From an uncultured bacterium (GTDB taxonomy: Bacteria > Bacillota_I > Bacilli_A > RF39 > UBA660), in contig CANSHI010000002.1 in assembly GCA_947646655.1 (NCBI GenBank), forward strand, positions 1-64,000: a DNA stretch of 64,000 bases. Direction: 5' to 3'. Each line of letters opens with the position of its first letter. Position 1 is the stretch's first letter. Under the pieces are notes generated by a model. It saw only the letters and a program-made list of their open reading frames with translations. It was not told where the DNA came from and searched no databases. Of this stretch, positions 53-43,498 are shown piece after piece. Made by a program: the position numbers and the translations under genes.

Positions 53-3000
53 CTAATATTCTGTTTTGTTAACCTGACCTACTATTTTTGAGGTTCTTAT
101 TCCATCTTTATTGTATTCATACATAATATTTAAAGTATTGTCAGAATTTAATACCTGTTTTAATTGTCTTCCGCTTTGCCATGTTAATGTTTTGTCTCCT
201 ATAGTAAGTGGGTTACCTATTTCATCGTAAGTAATTTCTTCATTGTTAAACTTAGTTAATTGATCTTCCCAGTCAGTATTAGAATACTCGTATGTATCAA
301 TATTTAGAAGTTCATTAGTTTCAAGATTGTATTCTCTTTTATCCAGTATGTTTCCTTCTGTGTTATAAGTAAATGTATAGGACTTAGTTAAAGTATAGTT
401 CATATCCATTGTTAGTTGATTAAACATATCATATTCGTAATGGTTAGTTAATTCACCATTTAAGTAGATATCGGTTATATTATATAAATTATCATATTTA
501 TATTCGTATAGATCATCGTCTATTTTAACTGATTTAACTATTAGAGATGTTTTGTTACCTCTTCCATAATAGGTATATTCTATTTTAAGGGTATTGTCTA
601 TACTTTTCTTTTCTAATCTTCCTAAGTAGTCGTAAGTATTATTTAAAGAATGATTATCAAATGATACTTTGACTATTGAATCATCTTTATTATATTCATA
701 GTTTATCTTAGAAGATAAATCATGGTTACCTGCACTAAATAGATTATAATCTTTATTCGTGACGTTTCCATTCTTATCGTAGTTATAATCAATTTCGAAG
801 GTAGTAGTAAAATCCGTTAATAGGTATTTAGATAATCTGTTAGCAAAATCATAAAAGTAATAATGATTTTCTGATCCGCCATAAACATTTGATAATTCAC
901 CTATAGAGTTATATTCGTTTGTGTATATTTTTCCACTTGCGGTATATGTTTTAAGTCTGTTAAATTCATCGTATGAATAATTAATTTTATTTCCATTTCC
1001 ATATTCACAAGAAAGCAAGTTACCATTTTTCTCTTCAAAATTATTAGTAACTAAAGTTTGGCCATTGATATCTATTTTTTTAGTATTTAAAAATTCATCG
1101 TACTCAAAATTATAATGTTTTTTTCCAGAAGCTATTTTAGAAAGCATATTTTGTGTATTATAATCATAAGTAACTGTTTTTTCATTACTTGTGATAGTTT
1201 TTACTTGATCTTTAGTGTTATAAGTATATTTAGTTACTATTTCTTTAGGATTTGTTATACTCATAGTTAAACCGGTGGAAGGGTCTACATCATAAAAGGT
1301 TTCTTTACCTAAAGAGTCTATTACTTTTGTAATGAACTTACCGTCTTCTGTATATTCAGAGATTGATTCTATGAACTTATTAGTGTCTGTGTCTTCTAAA
1401 TAGAACTGTTGATAACTATTTTCTCTATCTCGAACTTCTACACTGACAGTCCCATCTTCTTTAATGGTGATACATCTTTCAGCAATGTTTATACCATTTT
1501 CTATTCTCGCTTGTTCTCTTTTAGGAATAATTACATAACTTGCATTGTTTAAAGCTTCTAATTTAAATAAAATAGTATCGTCTAGAGCTTTAGAAATGTA
1601 TAATGTTTCATTTGCAAAAGTTAAAAAGTTATCGAAGTAATTTAATCTATAATATTCTTCTTCGTCATTCATAACTTTTTCTAGCTTAAATGCTTTATGA
1701 TTACAGTTATCAGGTTTTAAAATAATTTTATTTAAATCAAAATTAATATCAATATATTTTTTTGTACCTTTGAGTCTGAGTTGGTAAAATTTATCTTCCT
1801 TGATAATACCATCAGAATTAACATTGTTTATAATAGTTTTAATAGGATTACCAAATGAATCGTATTCGATTTCATTAGATATACCTGTTGGACTAATTCC
1901 TTTTAGAATGCGTGTTTTTACCGTGTTGTCATACTCATATTTATAGTTATTCCCTTTTGGGTTAAATGCTCCAATAAGTTGATTATTTATATCATATTTT
2001 AAGGTGTTTTTACCCCCATCTAAATTAGAAGAAGAAATAAGATTACCTTCTTCGTCGTATTCAAAAGTATACTCACCTAATTCTTTTACTAGCATAACAT
2101 CAGTTATAAAAAGTGAATTAGCTTCTACTAATGATAAAATATTTAAATTAAAGCCATTATAATCTTCGTCTGCAATAAATGATTCTGAAAAGAATTGCCA
2201 TTCATCAGAGTGCTTATTAAACACAATGTTATGTGTTCCTATTCCTTTGTCAGGGTCTTTAAAGAAGAACTGAATATTAGCTTTATTTCCTTCCATCTCT
2301 GATACACATTCCTCGTTATAGAGGCCTTGATCTTTATACCAAAACGATAGATGATAGACATCACCTTTCTTACCTTCAATCTGAAAATATTGGCTGGCAG
2401 ATATTTCAGAGTCCACTCTGCTTTTTAATTGAAGAGCTTTTTCATGATCATTAACATTTACAATTGAGTAGCAATTAGGATAAGATTCTCCTGTTTCTAA
2501 ATTTTGTGAAGAAATATCCCAATTAGCAATTCCATTTTTAAAACAAGAGTTTTCTACTAAATTATATTTACTAGCGCATAGACCTTCTTCTAATTGAACA
2601 TCGTCTAAATAAATAGTTGATTTTTCATCAGGTATGATTTCTATATCAATATAACATTCTGTATCAGTGGGGTACTTAAATGGTGCTATTATTTGCTCAA
2701 AATTTTCATTTTTACTGTAGTTTATGGTTTGTAGTAATATTATTTTATTTATATTTCTTGTGCAAATGTTTACTTTAAATGATGAATTACATTTGACGTA
2801 AGCACTAAATGTATAATCCTTACCTCTCTCTAAATTAATGCTATAATCTCGAAAATAGCACTCTATAAAATCTCCCTTATAACTATATTTGCCAGTTTTT
2901 GCATATTCAGTGCTTCTAATGCCTGCATTAAATATTGGGTTTGTTTCGGACTTTTCAAAACTAGAGTTAGAAAGTAAGTTATTTACAAATTTTATTGGTG

Positions 3001-5287
3001 GTGTCTCACTGGTAGGTTTATTGTTTTTTTTATCTGATTTAATGTTTATAAATTTTTGATTAAACCCATATGATTTTGAGAGTTTTCCACTTGGATCCAT
3101 TAAAGTTGTTCCTATACACATTCCTGTATTATTAAAGAGGTAGGTATATGTTTGGTTTTTATCATTTGTTACTTTAGTAGTATTAAAACCATACTTATAT
3201 TTGATTGTTTGACCAGTTATTCCCTCAACGCCTAATTCAGTGACTTTATATATTAGTCCTTCCAGCATTTTTTTCATAAGATCTTGAGTGCTTGTTCCCT
3301 CTTCAGTGTAACTAAATTGTAAGCCTATTCCATTTTCATCAGTGATTTGAGAAATAGATGTTTTAATTAATGTCATATATTTAAGATTAGTGGTACCATG
3401 TTTTGTAAGTACTTTAATAATTTTATTATTTTCTAGATATATTGCAGAGCTTTTTTCTGTGGTACTGATAATAATCTTATCCGTGTTATAAGTAATGTTT
3501 ATTTCTTGGTTACTTCCATCAACTACTTTAATTATTTGGTTCTTATCATTAAAGAAGATATTAACCTCATTTTTTTCAGTATTAATTATTTTAGTTAAAT
3601 AATATTTTTCACCATTTTTAGTGAATGTTTTAATGTTACCATCTTTATCGGTTATGATAAATTTATTTTCTTCCTCAGTTAATGTAAGATTTAAACCTTC
3701 TTCATTTTGATAAAATTCTTCTTTTGTTTCTTCATCTTTAACTTTATAGAAATTCGTAGTTTTATTAGTTGAATCTATATAGTGTATGTATTCTCTTTCA
3801 ATTTGATTTATTCTTTCTGTTTCTTTTGTTATTGTTTCAAGTAAATTAAACTTCCACGCATTTTTGTCATTTGTACTTTCTATGAAAGAGTTATTGATAA
3901 TGGCATTTAACTCTATAGGAAATTTACCTCCTAAAGTATTATTTAAGTTAATTAAAACGGTTAGATTACCATTATAAACGTCTAAATAAGAAATTCCATT
4001 TTTAAAACTATAGTTGTCATATTGTCTATAATTGGATATACCACCAGTATTAATGTATTGTATTAGCAAGTATGGTCTAACTTCATCTCCAAAATCAGTA
4101 AAATTGTGATTGTTCGAAATCTCTTTATAGCAACTACAACTGGAATTATATTCCTCATTTGCAAATTTCAGCATTACACCATTGTTTTTTTTACCTTTAT
4201 ACCATCGCTTAACTAAATTAGTTATATCAACAGAATTTTGACGTAATTGTGCAGGAGCTGTACTACCTCGTTCAACGAGTGTTCTATAAAATATATTTTC
4301 ACTTTCAATAGAAGGATTAAACTTATCGCTCATATTATCCCAATTAGCCGACGACTCATCCCATTCTGAGATAATTTCATGAGCGACTATTGGCTCAAAT
4401 TCTGGTGTTTCAACTTCTGTATAAATAGTATCGTATTTATGTGACACAAAATTTGCAGCTGCTCTTATTATTTCAGTACCAATGCTTAGTATAGGTAAAT
4501 CAAATTTTATTAGAGTTCTATAAATATTGCTCTGACTATCTACACCTATTTTTAACCAGCTTTCGCTGTTTTTATCTTGTCCAGTATCCCCAGGATAAAT
4601 ATATGTATCATGAACTTGACTTTTAACAGTTGTGATATTTGGATCTATATACACTGGTAATTTTGCTTTTTTTAACCAGTCTTTATTTAAATCCAAGGTT
4701 AAAACATAATATCCATCTCTTTTATCTAAAATGTACTGAATATTTAAGTACCTTTTATCTTCACTATCGTACATGAATGGTTGTTCAAAACTATATATTA
4801 TATTTTTCCCTTGATACGCATTAATTGTGTTCGCTTCTAAAACTAAGTTTAAATTAGTTCTAATAAGAAATTTAATGTCTAGTTTATTTAAGCTATTTAA
4901 TATTATGGTTTCTTTGACTCTTTGGCCAATAACTTTGTATATATAATCTATTTTATCGTATATATTTTTATATTTTATTGTATTATTTTCAACAGTTATT
5001 TCACAATTATTAGATTTTAAGGTTGATAAACTAAACTCTACGTATTTGTTGTCTTTTTCTATTTTATAAAGTAAAGAGTTATCTTTGCAATTTGCAAAAA
5101 TTACTTTAAAATCATTAGCTTTATTTTTATAAAAGTTACCATCTAATATCAGTGTATTGTCTATATCTTTATATTTACCGTGGTCTAAATAATGAATACT
5201 TTCTTTGTAGTAATAGGCTTTCATAGTGCCATCTTCACATAAAAAATGTTTTTCATTTTCTTTCCTTAAATTAATTATTTCTTTCAT
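53..5287 (-). CDS. Large DNRLRE/RHS (YD-repeat) protein
   Basis: Giant 1744-aa protein, presumably displayed or released at the cell surface. The N-terminus resembles the lead-in of WapA-like proteins (HYLDHGKYKDIDNTL). It is followed by a DNRLRE-type domain (about residues 215-420), a long beta-rich region with early YD-like repeats, a carbohydrate-binding-like stretch (about 770-1070), a possible beta-trefoil/ricin-like block (about 1165-1300) and classic YD repeats such as YEYDMFNQL up to the end. No signal peptide is visible, so the export route is unknown. A Shine-Dalgarno (AAAGGAG) precedes ATG. It stops after GIRTSKIVGQ..., where RHS proteins usually continue into a core and a variable toxin tip, so it may be truncated. 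It lies downstream of a phage-like regulator and baseplate protein. The domain calls are by eye; the RHS and DNRLRE assignment is firm. Confidence 0.8.
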   Translation of the reverse strand: MKEIINLRKENEKHFLCEDGTMKAYYYKESIHYLDHGKYKDIDNTLILDGNFYKNKANDFKVIFANCKDNSLLYKIEKDNKYVEFSLSTLKSNNCEITVENNTIKYKNIYDKIDYIYKVIGQRVKETIILNSLNKLDIKFLIRTNLNLVLEANTINAYQGKNIIYSFEQPFMYDSEDKRYLNIQYILDKRDGYYVLTLDLNKDWLKKAKLPVYIDPNITTVKSQVHDTYIYPGDTGQDKNSESWLKIGVDSQSNIYRTLIKFDLPILSIGTEIIRAAANFVSHKYDTIYTEVETPEFEPIVAHEIISEWDESSANWDNMSDKFNPSIESENIFYRTLVERGSTAPAQLRQNSVDITNLVKRWYKGKKNNGVMLKFANEEYNSSCSCYKEISNNHNFTDFGDEVRPYLLIQYINTGGISNYRQYDNYSFKNGISYLDVYNGNLTVLINLNNTLGGKFPIELNAIINNSFIESTNDKNAWKFNLLETITKETERINQIEREYIHYIDSTNKTTNFYKVKDEETKEEFYQNEEGLNLTLTEEENKFIITDKDGNIKTFTKNGEKYYLTKIINTEKNEVNIFFNDKNQIIKVVDGSNQEINITYNTDKIIISTTEKSSAIYLENNKIIKVLTKHGTTNLKYMTLIKTSISQITDENGIGLQFSYTEEGTSTQDLMKKMLEGLIYKVTELGVEGITGQTIKYKYGFNTTKVTNDKNQTYTYLFNNTGMCIGTTLMDPSGKLSKSYGFNQKFINIKSDKKNNKPTSETPPIKFVNNLLSNSSFEKSETNPIFNAGIRSTEYAKTGKYSYKGDFIECYFRDYSINLERGKDYTFSAYVKCNSSFKVNICTRNINKIILLQTINYSKNENFEQIIAPFKYPTDTECYIDIEIIPDEKSTIYLDDVQLEEGLCASKYNLVENSCFKNGIANWDISSQNLETGESYPNCYSIVNVNDHEKALQLKSRVDSEISASQYFQIEGKKGDVYHLSFWYKDQGLYNEECVSEMEGNKANIQFFFKDPDKGIGTHNIVFNKHSDEWQFFSESFIADEDYNGFNLNILSLVEANSLFITDVMLVKELGEYTFEYDEEGNLISSSNLDGGKNTLKYDINNQLIGAFNPKGNNYKYEYDNTVKTRILKGISPTGISNEIEYDSFGNPIKTIINNVNSDGIIKEDKFYQLRLKGTKKYIDINFDLNKIILKPDNCNHKAFKLEKVMNDEEEYYRLNYFDNFLTFANETLYISKALDDTILFKLEALNNASYVIIPKREQARIENGINIAERCITIKEDGTVSVEVRDRENSYQQFYLEDTDTNKFIESISEYTEDGKFITKVIDSLGKETFYDVDPSTGLTMSITNPKEIVTKYTYNTKDQVKTITSNEKTVTYDYNTQNMLSKIASGKKHYNFEYDEFLNTKKIDINGQTLVTNNFEEKNGNLLSCEYGNGNKINYSYDEFNRLKTYTASGKIYTNEYNSIGELSNVYGGSENHYYFYDFANRLSKYLLTDFTTTFEIDYNYDKNGNVTNKDYNLFSAGNHDLSSKINYEYNKDDSIVKVSFDNHSLNNTYDYLGRLEKKSIDNTLKIEYTYYGRGNKTSLIVKSVKIDDDLYEYKYDNLYNITDIYLNGELTNHYEYDMFNQLTMDMNYTLTKSYTFTYNTEGNILDKREYNLETNELLNIDTYEYSNTDWEDQLTKFNNEEITYDEIGNPLTIGDKTLTWQSGRQLKQVLNSDNTLNIMYEYNKDGIRTSKIVGQVNKTEY

Positions 5288-8630: not shown

Positions 8631-9578
8631 TTACTCACCTTCCATAAGAAATGAAAATATTAGGTAGGCTGTTTTAAGGGCATTATGTCTAATTTTTCCA
8701 TCGCTGACCGAAAATATTTTGTCAGCAATTAAACGAGTATTTAGATTAGTTATGTTATCTTTATCCAGTTTTACTAATTCTTTGTTTTCTAATTCTGAAT
8801 ATTTTTTTACTATACTTTGATCTATTTCTGCATTGTTAGCAATAACGATTTCTACATTTCTATTTCCTAAATACTTATTTAAAATTTTAATATGATCAGA
8901 GACTGAATAGCCGTCAGTTTCTCCTGGTTGTGTTACAAGATTAGAAACATACATTATAGGTGCATCACTTTTATTTATGGCGTTTCTTATGTCGTCTACT
9001 ATTAAGTGTGGTAAGATGCTTGTGTATAAACTTCCTGAGCTTAAAAGAATAAGATCGGCATCTTTGATTTGATCGATAACTTCTTTATTAATGGAAAAAT
9101 CTTTGTCATATTTTAATTTTGAAATGTTTTTGACGTTCAAACTGACTTCTTCTTCTCCTAAATATTCTTTTCCTAGTGTACTTTCCCCGATTAACTCAAC
9201 TTTATCTTCTGTTAGAGGAAGCACAGTTCCTTTAATATTTAAAAGTTCACACATATATTTTGTTGCATCTGTTAAATTTCCTTTGATATCTATAAGTGCT
9301 GTTAGAAGTATGTTTCTTATAGGATGATTTTCAAGTGATGCTTTAGTAAAGCGATAACTTAAAAGGTCGAGGAAATCGTTATCAACATTTGCCATTGAAA
9401 GCAGTACTTTGCCGACATCTCCTACTGCGGGAATATCAAATTCTTTTTTTAGTTGGCCTGTTGAAGAACCGTTGTCACTTACTGCCACTATCGCGGTGAC
9501 ATCTATTGGAAATTGTTTGAGACCAGATAACAGACAAGATATGCCTGTTCCTCCACCTAATATAACTATTTTTTTCAT
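8631..9578 (-). CDS. yvcK: YvcK/MgfK-family (CofD-like) protein
   Basis: 315 aa. The N-terminal Rossmann-type motif GGGTGISCLLSGLK and the following VSDNGSSTGQLKKEF are diagnostic of the YvcK/CofD-like family. YvcK proteins bind UDP-sugars and link carbon metabolism to cell-wall synthesis and morphology. AAGGAAG precedes the ATG. The usual upstream partner rapZ is absent here; a transporter gene lies upstream instead. It is directly followed by whiA. Confidence 0.93.
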   Translation of the reverse strand: MKKIVILGGGTGISCLLSGLKQFPIDVTAIVAVSDNGSSTGQLKKEFDIPAVGDVGKVLLSMANVDNDFLDLLSYRFTKASLENHPIRNILLTALIDIKGNLTDATKYMCELLNIKGTVLPLTEDKVELIGESTLGKEYLGEEEVSLNVKNISKLKYDKDFSINKEVIDQIKDADLILLSSGSLYTSILPHLIVDDIRNAINKSDAPIMYVSNLVTQPGETDGYSVSDHIKILNKYLGNRNVEIVIANNAEIDQSIVKKYSELENKELVKLDKDNITNLNTRLIADKIFSVSDGKIRHNALKTAYLIFSFLMEGE

Positions 9579-9635
9579 ATGTATCTTCCTTTTCTAATTA
9601 TATATTATAACACTTTCAAATATTAATTAAAATTA

Positions 9636-9659
9636 AAAACTCACCTAATGGTAAGTTTT
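9636..9659 (-). terminator. Terminator after the YfcC-type gene
   Basis: AAAACTTACC-ATTA-GGTGAGTTTT on the minus strand followed by TAATTTT, immediately after the transporter stop codon. Confidence 0.75.
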
Positions 9660-9661
9660 GA

Positions 9662-11065
9662 TTATGCTATGATTATTATTATAACAATTATAACTACTAG
9701 CATAGCAATAAGGAATTTCCAAATGAACTTCATCCATTCTTTGTATGGAATATCTAAATAAGATAGACCAAGCATCAAAATTGCACTTGATGGTACAAAG
9801 AAGCTTACTAGTCCAAAAATTGATTGGAATATTATTGCTATAACATTATGGACTTCTCCATAAGTAGCCGCATAATATCCACCAGCTAAGCTCATTGCAT
9901 ATTGCATTTCAACACTAAATAGTGAAGTTATAAATGCTCCTATGCTTGTAAAGAACGCGTTAAATCCACTTGTAATATTTGCTAACCAATCGACGATTGT
10001 AGGTATGACTGGATTCATAACGGCTATTTCTAATATTAGATAAACCATTAGTAAAACTATTACTACGTGACCGATCTTCTTAAAGCCTTCACCATAAGAT
10101 TCAAAGATTTCATTAAGTGAAACTCTTCCAAACCAGTGAATTAGAAGTGTCGCGAATAGCATGACAAGTTGTACTGTGAAAATATCCCATTTACCAAATT
10201 CTACTATTGTTCCAAAAATGTATGAAATAATTGGTGCATTAAATATTTCGAATTCGTTAACCCAAGTAGTGATATCTGTGAATACAGTAACATTCCATGT
10301 ACTCCAAGGTAAGTATGCTAAAACTGTGACAATAACGAATAGTATAATACCGATCGCATATGGCCAAGCCTTAGGTGCTTTTTTGGGAGTATCGATAGCT
10401 GCAAGTTCGAATTTATCATATTCTTCATGTTTTTTATTTGTTTTATTTTTAATAAGTCTTGAAACTGTAAAAACTGATAAAAGAACGAATGATACGATAA
10501 ATAGAATTGATTGAGTAGTTAATAAACTTGTGCCTTCAATTTCAAGAACTTCAGTAAATTGTCCTGCTATTTTAGTACTATATGTACTACCAATAGTTCC
10601 GACTAATAGTCCACCAAAAGTGGAAGCAAAAGCTGTAATTTTATCAACTTTCATACGATTGTATACTGTTATTATAAACGGTATAAATGCAATTAGTGGA
10701 AAATACTCACTTGTAAGACTACTCGTAATTGCAAATAGTAATGTAACTACTAATACAACTGGAATTTCACGTCCCTTTAATTTTTCGCTAATACTTTTGA
10801 CTAATTTCTGATATCCTGGACGTTTTGAGAGGACTTGATAAAAACCACCCATGACGAACAAGAAAGTTATTAGAACAGTAAAATAGTACATACCTAGTAA
10901 TCCCCATTGTAAGAAATTATTTAGGCCTACTCTTTGTATGTCTTCTGTGATCATTTCAGTACCTTGAAGATATCCATAAGGAATCAACCAAGTTAGAAAT
11001 ACTGATAACAAAACTAAAATACCAGATATTTTAATCAAATCATATTTTTCAAAAAATTTCTTCAT
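9662..11065 (-). CDS. YfcC-family membrane transporter
   Basis: 467 aa, about 11-12 hydrophobic segments. It resembles the YfcC/ArcD-type (DcuC-like) carriers: an N-terminal LVLLSVFLTWLIPYG helix, then LLFVMGGFYQVL, and FIPFIITVYNRM with a GGLLVGTIGSTY loop. Members are annotated as C4-dicarboxylate or basic amino-acid carriers; the substrate cannot be read from the sequence. The start is the ATG of MKKFFEKYD, preceded by AGGAGGAG; 21 upstream in-frame codons lack a ribosome site. Transcribed away from glmS. Confidence 0.8.
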   Translation of the reverse strand: MKKFFEKYDLIKISGILVLLSVFLTWLIPYGYLQGTEMITEDIQRVGLNNFLQWGLLGMYYFTVLITFLFVMGGFYQVLSKRPGYQKLVKSISEKLKGREIPVVLVVTLLFAITSSLTSEYFPLIAFIPFIITVYNRMKVDKITAFASTFGGLLVGTIGSTYSTKIAGQFTEVLEIEGTSLLTTQSILFIVSFVLLSVFTVSRLIKNKTNKKHEEYDKFELAAIDTPKKAPKAWPYAIGIILFVIVTVLAYLPWSTWNVTVFTDITTWVNEFEIFNAPIISYIFGTIVEFGKWDIFTVQLVMLFATLLIHWFGRVSLNEIFESYGEGFKKIGHVVIVLLMVYLILEIAVMNPVIPTIVDWLANITSGFNAFFTSIGAFITSLFSVEMQYAMSLAGGYYAATYGEVHNVIAIIFQSIFGLVSFFVPSSAILMLGLSYLDIPYKEWMKFIWKFLIAMLVVIIVIIIIIA

Positions 11066-40379: not shown

Positions 40380-41018
40380 TCATCTCAATATAAGTGTTAC
40401 TTTTCTGTTATTTGTCATTATTATATTTTCATCTTTTAAGTTTTTTAATTCCCTCATCATAGCACTTCGATCAATTGACAAGTATTCAGCAAGCGTTGTA
40501 TAAGAGAAAGGTATATATATAGTATTAGATTTTTGTTCCATTTTCAATATATGAAAGTATTCCAACAATTTATCACGAATACTCCTTTTGTTTAATATTT
40601 CAATTCTTCTATTATAGGAGTTGATTTTTTTTACTAATATATCGATGATATTTTGAATAAGTTGTTCTTGAGAGGGTACTTTTCTTCTTCCTTGACCTAA
40701 AAGCAAATTGTACTCGACGAATAATATTTCGCAGTCGGAGTTGGAAATAACGCTCATCTCGTCGGTCATATAGTCTGAAAAACATCCTCCAAATAATTCA
40801 TTAGTGGTCAATTCTGATACTATCGATCTTACCCCGTTATAATCTATTCTTATTAAAGATGCTTTACCTGATAAAATAATGCCTATTTCGTATGTGTTGC
40901 TCAAATTAGAAAGAATGGTCATATCTTTTTTGAAGGATACTTTTCTTGCGTTTAGACTTTTTAAAATTTTTTCAATTTCTACGGAGTCGATATTTTTAAA
41001 TAAACCATCATTCATCAT
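40380..41018 (-). CDS. Crp/Fnr-family transcriptional regulator
   Basis: 212 aa. N-terminal cyclic-nucleotide-binding fold (ILSNLSNTYEIGIILSGKASLIRIDYNGVRSIVSEL) and C-terminal winged helix (IPFSYTTLAEYLSIDRSAMMRELKNLKDENII). There are no Cys clusters for an Fe-S centre and no canonical cAMP motif, so the ligand is unknown. The start is the ATG in GGTGATATGATG; an upstream ATG lies before the predicted promoter -10. Divergent from the NrdD-like gene, which it may control. Confidence 0.85.
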   Translation of the reverse strand: MMNDGLFKNIDSVEIEKILKSLNARKVSFKKDMTILSNLSNTYEIGIILSGKASLIRIDYNGVRSIVSELTTNELFGGCFSDYMTDEMSVISNSDCEILFVEYNLLLGQGRRKVPSQEQLIQNIIDILVKKINSYNRRIEILNKRSIRDKLLEYFHILKMEQKSNTIYIPFSYTTLAEYLSIDRSAMMRELKNLKDENIIMTNNRKVTLILR

Positions 41019-41023
41019 ATCAC

Positions 41024-41062
41024 CTGTAATTTTAGTATAGTTAAATTTTGTTGCATTTGCAA
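41024..41062 (-). promoter_or_regulatory. Divergent promoter region with inverted repeat
   Basis: For the Crp/Fnr gene TTGCAA and TATACT are 17 bp apart, reading leftward. The -35 lies inside the palindrome TTGCATTTGCAA (41051-41062), a plausible operator for self-control or for control of the plus-strand NrdD-like gene. Confidence 0.45.
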
Positions 41063-41128
41063 TACTTTTTTTCATTAAAGTGTGATAGACTATTATTATA
41101 AGTTGAAGACTTGAAAGGAGTGATTGTA

Positions 41129-42826
41129 ATGAAAATAGTGAAACGAGATGGAAGAACTGTAGATTATAATCCTGATAAAATTAAGCTTGCTATAGGGAAA
41201 GCGAATAATGAAGTACAAAACTCAGATAAGATAGACGATCAGGATATTGATAAAATTATAATGTATATAGAAAGCTTAAACAAAAAAAGAATGTTAGTAG
41301 AAGACATTCAGGATATTATTGAAGAAAAATTAATGGAAATGCAAAAGTTTAATTTGGCTAAAAAGTATATTATTTATCGCTATACTAGATCTATAATTAG
41401 AAAGTCGAATACAACTGATGCCTCTATATTGTCATTACTTAAAAATGAAGATGTTAATTCAGGAAATTATTTAGTATCTTATAGACAAAGAGATATGATG
41501 GCAGGTGAAGCGAGTAAAGATTTGGCATTTAGATTATTATTGCCTAATAATGTAGTTCAAGCACATAAAAGTGGATTTATCAATTTTTGTAATGTGGAAT
41601 ATTTTACAGAACCAATAATTGAAAGTTTGAAAATAAGTTTAAAGGAAATTTTAAAAGATGGAACCGTTTTAAATGGAGTAAAAATTGATAAGCCAAAAGG
41701 GTTTCAGTCTGCTTGCAACATTTTAATAGAAGTTATAGCTTCGTTGGCGAGTGCTCAGACAGGGGCAATATATTTAGATTTTAGCGAACTGTTTGAATAT
41801 TACTATTTGTCTTACGATAAACAATATAAATTGTATAGTACTATATTAGGAAAAAGCATAAGTGATGAAGAAATTAGTGCTTTAACAAGGACACAAACTT
41901 TTTTAGAAGTAATTTCAGGTATTCAAACTTTAATTTATCAGATAAATACTATTACTTTGGCGAGTGGATTAGTTCCAAAAGTATATTTTTTAGTTGATCC
42001 TAAAGCTTGTAAAGACTCATTTGAAGAGCAAATTATGTTAGAGTTATTAAAGCAACGCAGAAGGGGAATCCTTTTAGATGACAATACGATTAGAGATTAT
42101 CCTTTAATAGTATATTGCTATAATTTTGAGGAAAGATATCAGTATTTAAACGAAGAAGCGTTGAAAATAGGCACTAAGTCTATCATCATGAATGCTGAAA
42201 CTTATGATAGTTTTGTCAATGAGGCATCTAGGTTTAATCAAGGATCAATTATTTTAAATTTGCCATCTATTGCTAAAGATGCTGCCTCGAATAATAAAGA
42301 CTTTTTAGAAGAATTAGAAAAAGTGTTAGGCTATTGTTATGAAGGAATGCTTTGTAGGAATCATAATCTTCAAGGAATTTTTAGTGACAAGAGTCCTATT
42401 CATTGGCAGTATGGTGGTATTGCCAAATTAAAAAAAGGCGAGAAAATAGACAATTTTTTAAAAAAAGAGTATTCTTTTATGAATTTAGCTGTAATAGGCT
42501 TAGAAAATGCTACTCATATTTTAGGTTCACAATTTAAAACGGATATAATTAAAAGAATTGAAAATAGTGTTAAAGTTTGGAATCAAAGTAGTTCATTTGA
42601 TGTCAGGCTATCAAACTTTTATGATGAAAATACAATTAATGAGTTATTTAAAAAAGATGAAGAATATTTAAGTAAATATGAAATAAATAAAACTTACGAT
42701 TCTTTAGACTTTATAAAAAGTGGATATTTTAAAAGTAACTTTATATATTTACCTTTATTGGAAAATTATGAGAATGTAGAAAGTATTATTCGTGAAAATA
42801 ACTATTTTGTAATTTATAAAAAATAG
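41129..42826 (+). CDS. NrdD-like protein with ATP-cone, lacking the glycyl-radical site
   Basis: 565 aa. An N-terminal ATP-cone (KIVKRDGRTVDYNPDKIKLAIGKA) is followed by segments that align with class III ribonucleotide reductase: GEASKDLAFRLLLPNNVVQAHKSG, GIQTLIYQINTI, SPIHWQYGGIAKLKKGE. It ends early. The C-terminal zinc Cys cluster and the glycyl-radical RVxGY motif are absent, and the usual catalytic context HFHDxDYF reads NFCNVEYF. So it is probably not an active reductase. AAAGGAG supports the ATG of MKIVKRD. No nrdG follows. A nucleotide-sensing role is speculation. Confidence 0.75.
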   Translation: MKIVKRDGRTVDYNPDKIKLAIGKANNEVQNSDKIDDQDIDKIIMYIESLNKKRMLVEDIQDIIEEKLMEMQKFNLAKKYIIYRYTRSIIRKSNTTDASILSLLKNEDVNSGNYLVSYRQRDMMAGEASKDLAFRLLLPNNVVQAHKSGFINFCNVEYFTEPIIESLKISLKEILKDGTVLNGVKIDKPKGFQSACNILIEVIASLASAQTGAIYLDFSELFEYYYLSYDKQYKLYSTILGKSISDEEISALTRTQTFLEVISGIQTLIYQINTITLASGLVPKVYFLVDPKACKDSFEEQIMLELLKQRRRGILLDDNTIRDYPLIVYCYNFEERYQYLNEEALKIGTKSIIMNAETYDSFVNEASRFNQGSIILNLPSIAKDAASNNKDFLEELEKVLGYCYEGMLCRNHNLQGIFSDKSPIHWQYGGIAKLKKGEKIDNFLKKEYSFMNLAVIGLENATHILGSQFKTDIIKRIENSVKVWNQSSSFDVRLSNFYDENTINELFKKDEEYLSKYEINKTYDSLDFIKSGYFKSNFIYLPLLENYENVESIIRENNYFVIYKK

Positions 42827-42851
42827 TAGAGCTTTTTTACTCTACTATTTT
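42820..42851. terminator. Bidirectional terminator between NrdD-like gene and divIC
   Basis: AAAATAGTAGAG / CTCTACTATTTT, a perfect 12-bp stem overlapping both stop codons. Confidence 0.9.
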
Positions 42852-43124
42852 AATTATGATTTCACCCTCTTTAGAGTAAAGATATTTTTCTCTTGCAAAT
42901 CTAGCAATATATTCAGGATCTTTTAGTCTTACTATATCGCTTGATAAGGTTTCTTCGTCTTCTAAAAGTGTTTGATAATTATTTTCTAATTCTTGTTTTT
43001 CTTTATAATTTGAAAATATTTTAGGCCAATAGTAATACATCTTATAGCCAAAAAGACCTAATAGGCCTATTATGGTAAAAATGTATATTCTTAAACGTCT
43101 TTTTTCCTTTTTAGTTCTTTTCAT
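42837..43124 (-). CDS. divIC: DivIC/FtsB-like septum protein
   Basis: 95 aa. Basic cytoplasmic tip, one membrane helix (YIFTIIGLLGLFGYKMYYYW), a short coiled coil (KEKQELENNYQTLLEDEETL) and the family end RLKDPEYIARFAREKYLYSKEGEIIIKI. A divisome component working with FtsL and DivIB. The start at MKRTKKE is preceded by GAGG. Downstream of yabP-yabQ as in Bacillus. Confidence 0.92.
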   Translation of the reverse strand: MKRTKKEKRRLRIYIFTIIGLLGLFGYKMYYYWPKIFSNYKEKQELENNYQTLLEDEETLSSDIVRLKDPEYIARFAREKYLYSKEGEIIIKIVE

Positions 43125-43198
43125 ATTTTTTGCCTCGTGTTTATTATAGCATTTTATTAAAAGCGGTTGCAATGTAAGAAGAGTTATTTTAAAAAAGT

Positions 43199-43498
43199 TT
43201 ACATAAATTTGACTTTTTTCTTAAATATTTTATTTTTTAAATTCCGGATTTTTTGAAAAAATATTTTATAAGTTAAATTCCCTAAAATAATGCCTATAAA
43301 AAATACGATTATAAAGTAAGGATGAATTTTGCCTCCATTAATATGAAAGAGTATATAAGTAAAAATAGTTGTTAGTATAGGAAAAATGATGTAACAAAGT
43401 ATTTTTCTTCGTATTAAAACAAGCTTATATATAAATATAATTGCTAAGCCAAAGATAAAAAATGATGTGAAGGACATCAATTGAGTGTGAATGCTCAT
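43199..43498 (-). CDS. yabQ: YabQ-like spore cortex protein
   Basis: 99 aa, three or four hydrophobic segments and a basic C-terminal end. The sequence is poorly conserved, but the size, topology (QLMSFTSFFIFGLAIIFIY) and place between yabP and divIC fit YabQ, a membrane protein needed for spore cortex formation in B. subtilis. Overlaps yabP by 4 bp. Confidence 0.75.
   Translation of the reverse strand: MSIHTQLMSFTSFFIFGLAIIFIYKLVLIRRKILCYIIFPILTTIFTYILFHINGGKIHPYFIIVFFIGIILGNLTYKIFFQKIRNLKNKIFKKKVKFM

Follow-up and report, generated by a model that had tools for sequence, protein, structure and literature searches.

What would a class III ribonucleotide reductase (RNR), an oxygen-sensitive enzyme that supplies the precursors of DNA, be for once the residues of its active site have gone? 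The question is raised by a locus in the window analysed here (the whole 64-kb stretch of DNA), which comes from a member of a small-genome bacterial family related to Clostridia (genome G000, 1.43 Mb, 92.8% complete). There, a gene for an NrdD-like protein, hereafter pseudo-NrdD, lies divergent from a gene for a Crp/Fnr-type regulator. The NrdD-like gene and its parts are as follows:

41129–42826, + strand: NrdD-like pseudoenzyme, 565 aa (domain profiles, alignment, tree)
41129–41392, + strand: ATP-cone, residues 1–88, with the checked nucleotide-contact positions retained (Pfam, alignment)
41483–42814, + strand: degenerate NRDD barrel without catalytic Cys, finger loop, zinc cluster or radical Gly

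An NrdD-like protein and its lost catalytic features

The first-pass annotation of the window had described a 565-aa protein with an ATP-cone and an NrdD core that ends before the zinc cluster and the radical Gly, and both Pfam and alignment agree with this description. Two Pfam profiles match above their cut-offs: the ATP-cone (69.5 bits, residues 1–88) and NRDD (140.9 bits, residues 119–562). The latter match stops at position 466 of the profile (11–466 of 562), and the end that bears the radical Gly is therefore absent from the window protein. The NCBIfam equivalog for NrdD, TIGR02487, gives 105 bits against a cut-off of 326, and identity to nine full-length NrdDs is 36–38%. The best Foldseek matches of the predicted structure are NrdDs; the model, of no more than fair quality (mean pLDDT 65, pTM 0.45; local pLDDT 79–93 over residues 1–80, i.e. 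the cone, and below 50 over residues 496–565), supports the NrdD fold but not its details.

Using the exon translations of phage T4 NrdD and the NrdDs of the family as alignment landmarks, we found that the Cys pair of the strand motif NCC is replaced by ESL in the window protein, that the finger loop, and with it the catalytic Cys, has been deleted, and that the zinc Cys and the RxxGY motif are gone (we take the catalytic finger-loop Cys and the strand Cys to be the counterparts of C290 and C79 of T4 NrdD). Also gone is the NxN flap motif, an active-site feature of NrdD according to PMC12662201: the window protein has NSGN there, and its relative in G083 has none. NCC, MGCR, the zinc Cys and the radical Gly are all present in 14 active NrdDs of the 708-aa class. 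The 11 aligned dead copies, i.e. the window gene and its counterparts in other genomes, have all lost the zinc set and the radical Gly along with the finger-loop Cys and the first strand Cys; the second strand Cys survives in one of them (G114). Two further dead copies, in G371 (of the window's genus) and G404, came from a gene-order search and bring the total to 13; both are without the finger Cys and the first strand Cys, the second being kept in G404. Thirteen of 13 are without the glycyl domain, the finger Cys and the first, otherwise invariant, strand Cys. To judge from these residues, the window protein cannot be a reductase of the known kind; the earlier claim that it is catalytically dead is borne out by the absence of the catalytic Cys, zinc Cys and radical Gly on alignment with NrdD.

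A frameshift or a missing second half was considered and rejected after a search for RxxGY-type motifs in the six frames of 15 loci. Ten loci gave no match with this pattern, which is blind to the NGYL form of the 724-aa NrdDs; the matches in the other five belong to neighbouring complete NrdDs (L050, L056) or to a glycyl ORF on contig C4 of the window's genome (L001), or are noise across stops (L049, L059).

The intact NrdD that the first-pass annotation had suggested seeking elsewhere in the genome does exist: one further NrdD (G000:C4:54026-55849, 754 aa), with GCR and the zinc Cys, is encoded on C4, where active nrdD is followed by a 58-aa ORF with the motif RITGYLVG and then by nrdG. The earlier statement that nrdG is lacking thus holds for the pseudo-nrdD locus but not for the genome.

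The C4 locus shows a further feature, a class III reductase that is split: beyond its zinc cysteines, the active NrdD ends in a Cys-rich tail and has no radical Gly of its own, and the radical-Gly motif (RITGYLVG) lies in a separate ORF of 56–69 aa that precedes nrdG. Loci of this type are:

L001 (G000:C4), 1235–1411 and 1438–3702: split reductase
L118, 6392–6562: split reductase
L119, 5500–5709: split reductase

In a sample of the class, 18 of the 23 glycyl-motif matches within the family lie in frames of 54–68 aa; in other families, the frames are of 92–123 aa or 170–177 aa, and fused forms occur as well. Our literature search for such a split reductase gave no paper clearly describing it.

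Spread of the dead copies and selection on the ATP-cone

The 13 dead copies, open frames of 543–654 aa in 13 genomes, occur in one family and in several of its genera. A strain-specific truncation, which the first-pass annotation had named as a finding that would undo its proposal, is ruled out by this common loss. In a 36-row tree, 11 dead copies form one clade (100/99) within the 708-aa NrdDs; when G371 and G404 are added, 12 form a single clade (99/95) with G404 nearby, and all 13 are grouped only with 37/98. Every dead branch is long, so that the grouping could partly reflect long-branch attraction. Three further Crp/Fnr-linked NrdDs (G103, G137, G082) have MGCR but no glycyl domain, a complete NrdD being encoded elsewhere in each genome; we read these as separate, younger losses, though faults of single assemblies are possible.

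No dead copy was found in G298, a genome of the window's genus that is 87% complete. When the dead-copy alignment was searched against 395 genomes of the class, contig-end fragments being left unclassed, there was no full-length short frame of the dead type outside the family among the matches listed. Six genomes were excluded from the counts: G043, whose frames are split over contigs C63 and C37, and G074, G158, G169, G073 and G138, where the gene is at a contig end or broken. The Crp/Fnr-linked NrdD-like gene of G043 (L057 7829–8758 on C63, L058 7313–8284 on C37) keeps zinc-type Cys in its C-terminal part and is without RxxGY, and is perhaps a further dead copy. A phage origin was rejected: phage NrdDs are less than 60% identical to the window protein, the ten listed all being below 38%. 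Viral contigs scanned by pattern yielded no relatives with the single protein as query and six with the alignment, of which the two that were translated are full-length NrdDs.

The dead copies are found in several settings. In five genomes (G154, G114, G010, G027, G404), the dead copy lies upstream of an active nrdD–nrdG pair and overlaps or nearly joins it; the arrangement is probably the same in G098, where the contig ends, and in G063 the dead copy lies downstream of nrdD–nrdG in the same operon. In the other six (G000, G083, G371, G170, G035, G092), it stands beside the Crp/Fnr gene with no adjoining nrdD, and four of these (G000, G083, G170, G092) have a separate active nrdD with the operator of the dead copy. 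Wherever the contig reaches, the dead copy adjoins the Crp/Fnr gene, save in G063. The synteny of G371 (ABC ATPase, DivIC) matches the window, which speaks against a chimera. The active NrdDs of the dead-copy genomes fall into at least three subclasses in the tree; G035 (93% complete) yielded none.

Two observations on neighbouring genes may be recorded here. The 1.4-Mb genome has sporulation functions, with YabQ-like (below cut-off), DivIC and SpoIVB-type genes, and a gene which we name dUTPase-like by its motifs follows nrdD or dead nrdD at three loci:

43199–43498 and 42837–43172 of the window: sporulation-type genes
L120 (G000:C4), 9420–10469: sporulation-type gene
L117, 2577–3035; L051, 2751–3191; L052, 7021–7473: dUTPase-like gene

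The dead and active proteins diverge in opposite ways. Dead copies average 0.65 pairwise identity in the cone against 0.59 for active NrdDs, and 0.36–0.38 against 0.77–0.79 in the barrel, i.e. the cone is the best-conserved part of the former and the most variable part of the latter. The ratio of divergence in cone plus linker to that in the barrel averages 0.57 for dead copies (range 0.19–0.75; 55 pairs of 11) and 1.67 for active NrdDs (1.01–2.31; 91 pairs of 14), the two ranges being disjoint. In the congeneric genomes G154 and G010, each with a dead and an active gene, cone dN is 0.044 for the dead against 0.110 for the active gene, and barrel dN 0.18–0.25 against 0.05–0.07, with dS near or beyond saturation. 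In most pairs dS is saturated. It is usable (0.95) for the dead copies of G170 and G035, whose w of 0.22 over the whole gene drops to 0.03 in the cone and is 0.25–0.30 elsewhere.

The same pattern is seen column by column. Of the cone columns invariant in active NrdDs, 20 of 26 are equally fixed across the 13 dead copies, and 25 are kept by the window protein; the corresponding figures for the barrel are 21 and 109 of 224. The ATP/dATP-contact residues given in the reports on P. copri NrdD (PMC11226230) and S. thermophilus NrdD (PMC12662201) map by alignment to K5, R6, K17, I18, K24, Q61, Y80, Y83, R87 and R91, and the window protein has ten of ten. Only K24 varies among the 11 dead copies at these mapped positions (H in G154; the N-terminus of G027 is unaligned), and 9 of the 12 reported contact positions are identical in every dead copy that aligns there. 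The substitution patterns indicate that the dead copies are held as open frames by purifying selection, chiefly protecting the ATP-cone, and dNTP/ATP sensing by the cone of the window protein is plausible.

The window's genome has only two ATP-cones, both in NrdD-type proteins. NrdR, a universal bacterial repressor according to PMC12051234, is absent from it as far as TIGR00244 gives no match, and this profile scores above its cut-off in one of 193 family genomes, the weak matches being mostly in frames of NrdD length. The contact residues of the 724-aa-class NrdDs in G154, G114 and G010 suggested cone complementation, i.e. an active partner with a worn cone; we did not adopt it because those cones pass the Pfam cut-off (44–58 bits) and the active cone of the window's genome is normal.

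The Crp/Fnr gene, its operator and the candidate regulon

The divergent gene and the intergenic region have the following features:

40380–41018, − strand: Crp/Fnr-type regulator P0002, 212 aa, start M20 (M21 at 41015 possible)
41050–41063, no strand: palindromic operator GTTGCATTTGCAAT
41086–41091, + strand: predicted −10 TAGACT with TG upstream, pseudo-nrdD promoter, 29 bp from the palindrome centre (class II)
41034–41039, − strand: predicted −10 TATACT, crp promoter, 17 bp from the palindrome centre

The divergent Crp/Fnr gene and the palindrome over its −35 noted in the first-pass annotation are both confirmed, but the annotated start (41075) should be moved: we place it at about 41018 because the relatives are 204–232 aa long (many 208–212) and the palindrome would otherwise lie inside the ORF. 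In P0002, HTH_Crp_2 scores 28.5 bits (Pfam cut-off 27), which identifies a Crp-type HTH, and cNMP_binding 27.3 bits against a cut-off of 27.5. The class II hexamer of pseudo-nrdD, TAGACT, is weak (4/6 of consensus), with better hexamers a few bases beyond. On the other side, the 17-bp offset means that the operator overlaps the crp −35/spacer.

Within the window alone (64 kb, one mismatch allowed), the palindrome is found 3 times against 2.97 expected, i.e. not above chance; its significance comes from its conservation across genomes. P0002-like genes occur in 77 of 193 family genomes (E up to 0.001), or 76 without the weak match in G008. We surveyed 50 loci, keeping those in which the Crp/Fnr gene is divergent from and within 500 bp of an nrdD-like gene; 37 sites remained after removal of 7 duplicate loci, and all 37 have the palindrome, relaxed forms allowed. 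Of the 76 Crp/Fnr genomes, 74 have the exact form GTTGCAnnTGCAAC, against 16 of 117 others; its reversed control pattern occurs in 3 of 193. In most sites, the best −10 on the nrdD side starts at a distance of 29–30 bp from the centre of the palindrome (weights 17.3 + 5.1 of 37, with ties divided), which places the centre near −41, the position of a class II activator; on the crp side, it mostly starts at 17 or 23 bp, so that the site covers the crp promoter. Most of the family genomes with a Crp/Fnr gene have it next to active nrdD. The "dedicated pair" proposed earlier therefore survives in part: pair and palindrome are conserved in relatives, but the dead copy is not the only partner of the Crp/Fnr gene.

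The operator has four zero-mismatch matches in the window's genome, two in long ORFs (C2:226863, C16:18191) and two intergenic, namely that of the crp/pseudo-nrdD pair (C2:41050) and one about 60 bp before active nrdD (C4:56286), with TGT-TATACT at 29 bp. A one-mismatch site (C4:58494) precedes a gene for a P-loop protein whose guanylate-kinase match is weak and below the cut-off (L120 10475–11071, G000:C4); the −10 is at 29 bp, and the gene is a possible third member of the regulon. Among 20 operator stretches from other genomes, 9 are intra-ORF and uninformative (L147–L149, L153, L154, L156–L158, L160). The 11 informative sites precede active nrdD (G170, G103), an ORF immediately before active nrdD (G082), an nrdG2-type activase whose contig also carries an active nrdD (G137), pyruvate formate-lyase (G089, G106, G170, G034), thymidylate synthase (G141, G068) and a lactate/formate-type transporter (G039). 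The active nrdD of G083 also has the operator. The −10 offset of 29–30 bp recurs in most regulon sites, pfl of G034 being an exception. From these sites, the Crp/Fnr protein is predicted to govern glycyl-radical and dNTP enzymes, which speaks against a dNTP-only signal.

E. coli FNR is a class II activator of the CRP/FNR type at nrdDG and pfl, and FNR proteins of the iron–sulfur type have four Cys ligands. The sites described here are like class II CRP/FNR sites in that the palindrome is centred near −41 of nrdD and of most examined pfl promoters. They differ from those of E. coli FNR in the operator itself (TTGCAnnTGCAA), and P0002, with just two Cys, has no FNR-type ligand set.

Possible roles of the dead NrdD

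Because the catalytic parts are lost and the sensor domain is under strong selection, pseudo-NrdD is probably a regulator of the enzyme and not an enzyme. Our preferred reading, to which we give an even chance, is that pseudo-nrdD encodes a conserved regulatory pseudoenzyme of class III RNR that tunes the system, most likely via mixed oligomers with active NrdD. With a second NrdD available, the nrdD of the Crp/Fnr locus would have been released from catalysis and kept for nucleotide sensing. Its cone would bind ATP or dATP; when dATP is high, pseudo-NrdD would join active NrdD through cone–cone contacts, and the mixed oligomer would lower or tune NrdD activity in trans. By analogy, a model for such an oligomer may be found in P. 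copri NrdD, whose dATP-loaded cones self-interact and drive the formation of tetramers, as stated in PMC11226230. Pseudo-nrdD sits at a Crp/Fnr-controlled nrdD locus and its operator is common with active nrdD; we predict that, from the class II site, the Crp/Fnr protein switches on both pseudo-nrdD and active nrdD as well as a few further genes, and that it represses its own gene.

The Crp/Fnr protein is the constant partner of the dead copies (G063 excepted, as far as the contigs reach) while the subclass of the active NrdD varies, and NrdR is missing at the cut-off in 192 of 193 genomes; these facts would suit a dead NrdD that acts as co-regulator of Crp/Fnr, its cone reporting ATP/dATP to the activator and so replacing NrdR in transcription. 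However, most Crp/Fnr genomes pair the gene with active nrdD and have no dead copy, about half of the dead copies share an operon with active nrdD, and the operator-like sites before pfl and thyA suggest another main signal, all of which leaves a co-regulator rather doubtful. The variety of active NrdD subclasses is in turn awkward for one conserved heteromer, unless cone contacts are used; together with the breadth of the regulon, it limits our confidence in the mixed-oligomer and co-regulator readings alike. A broader scenario, which we put forward tentatively, is that in this NrdR-less family RNR itself took over dNTP sensing, via the cone of the Crp/Fnr-linked NrdD and then via a dead NrdD sensor whenever a second NrdD took over catalysis, with repeated conversion (the old clade and G103, G137, G082).

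Could the dead NrdD instead be a displaced, functionless relic that is drifting to loss? The barrel, flap and C-terminus are degraded to differing degrees, and G103, G137 and G082 look like intermediates (finger Cys kept, glycyl domain lost, complete NrdD elsewhere), but we regard a relic as unlikely given the open frames of 543–654 aa in 13 genomes, the retained promoter and operator, and a purifying selection that peaks in the cone and is tighter there than on the active enzyme in the same genomes. Finally, the 58-aa RITGYLVG ORF of the window's genome might be thought to complete a working reductase in trans. As this ORF lies between nrdG and an intact NrdD that has no radical Gly of its own, it is not the missing C-terminal domain that the first-pass annotation had envisaged as a separate gene; it would be no help to the dead copy, from which the needed finger-loop and strand cysteines are absent, and glycyl domains are fused in other dead-copy genomes. 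Such a reductase is extremely improbable, and we reject it unless its chemistry were wholly different.

Pseudo-NrdD has relatives and analogues among known systems. With NrdD of class III (PF13597 and PF03477; S. thermophilus 9d3x, P. copri 8p23, phage T4 1h78), it has the fold and the N-terminal ATP-cone in common; it differs in being without the catalytic Cys, finger loop, NxN flap, zinc cluster and radical Gly. NrdR (TIGR00244), an ATP-cone repressor of RNR genes, is similar in its way of working only, as an ATP-cone protein tied to RNR regulation; pseudo-NrdD has no zinc ribbon match and no repressor architecture. Yeast Rnr4 and the herpesvirus R1-like proteins are RNR-derived pseudoenzymes with structural or regulatory roles, but they are of class I and eukaryotic or viral, whereas pseudo-NrdD is of class III and bacterial. 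NrdB of Leeuwenhoekiella blandensis (5olk), according to PMC5794259, likewise has an ATP-cone on a non-catalytic protein, but is the radical-generating subunit of a class I enzyme, whereas pseudo-NrdD is a dead class III catalytic subunit. Neither NCBIfam nor the literature searched, from which most subscription journals fall out of scope, yielded a bacterial class III RNR pseudoenzyme, and a literature search with motif strings of pseudo-NrdD returned only papers unrelated by title.

If our preferred reading is true, pseudo-NrdD would be the first bacterial class III RNR pseudoenzyme found in the literature searched and in NCBIfam, and would represent a natural case in which an enzyme that DNA synthesis depends on has had its allosteric sensing split off from its catalysis, as well as a candidate for the control of dNTP supply in bacteria without NrdR. 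The locus also yields a defined operator, and with it a candidate regulon, for a so far unstudied Crp/Fnr protein of this large family that is predicted to control glycyl-radical and dNTP enzymes.
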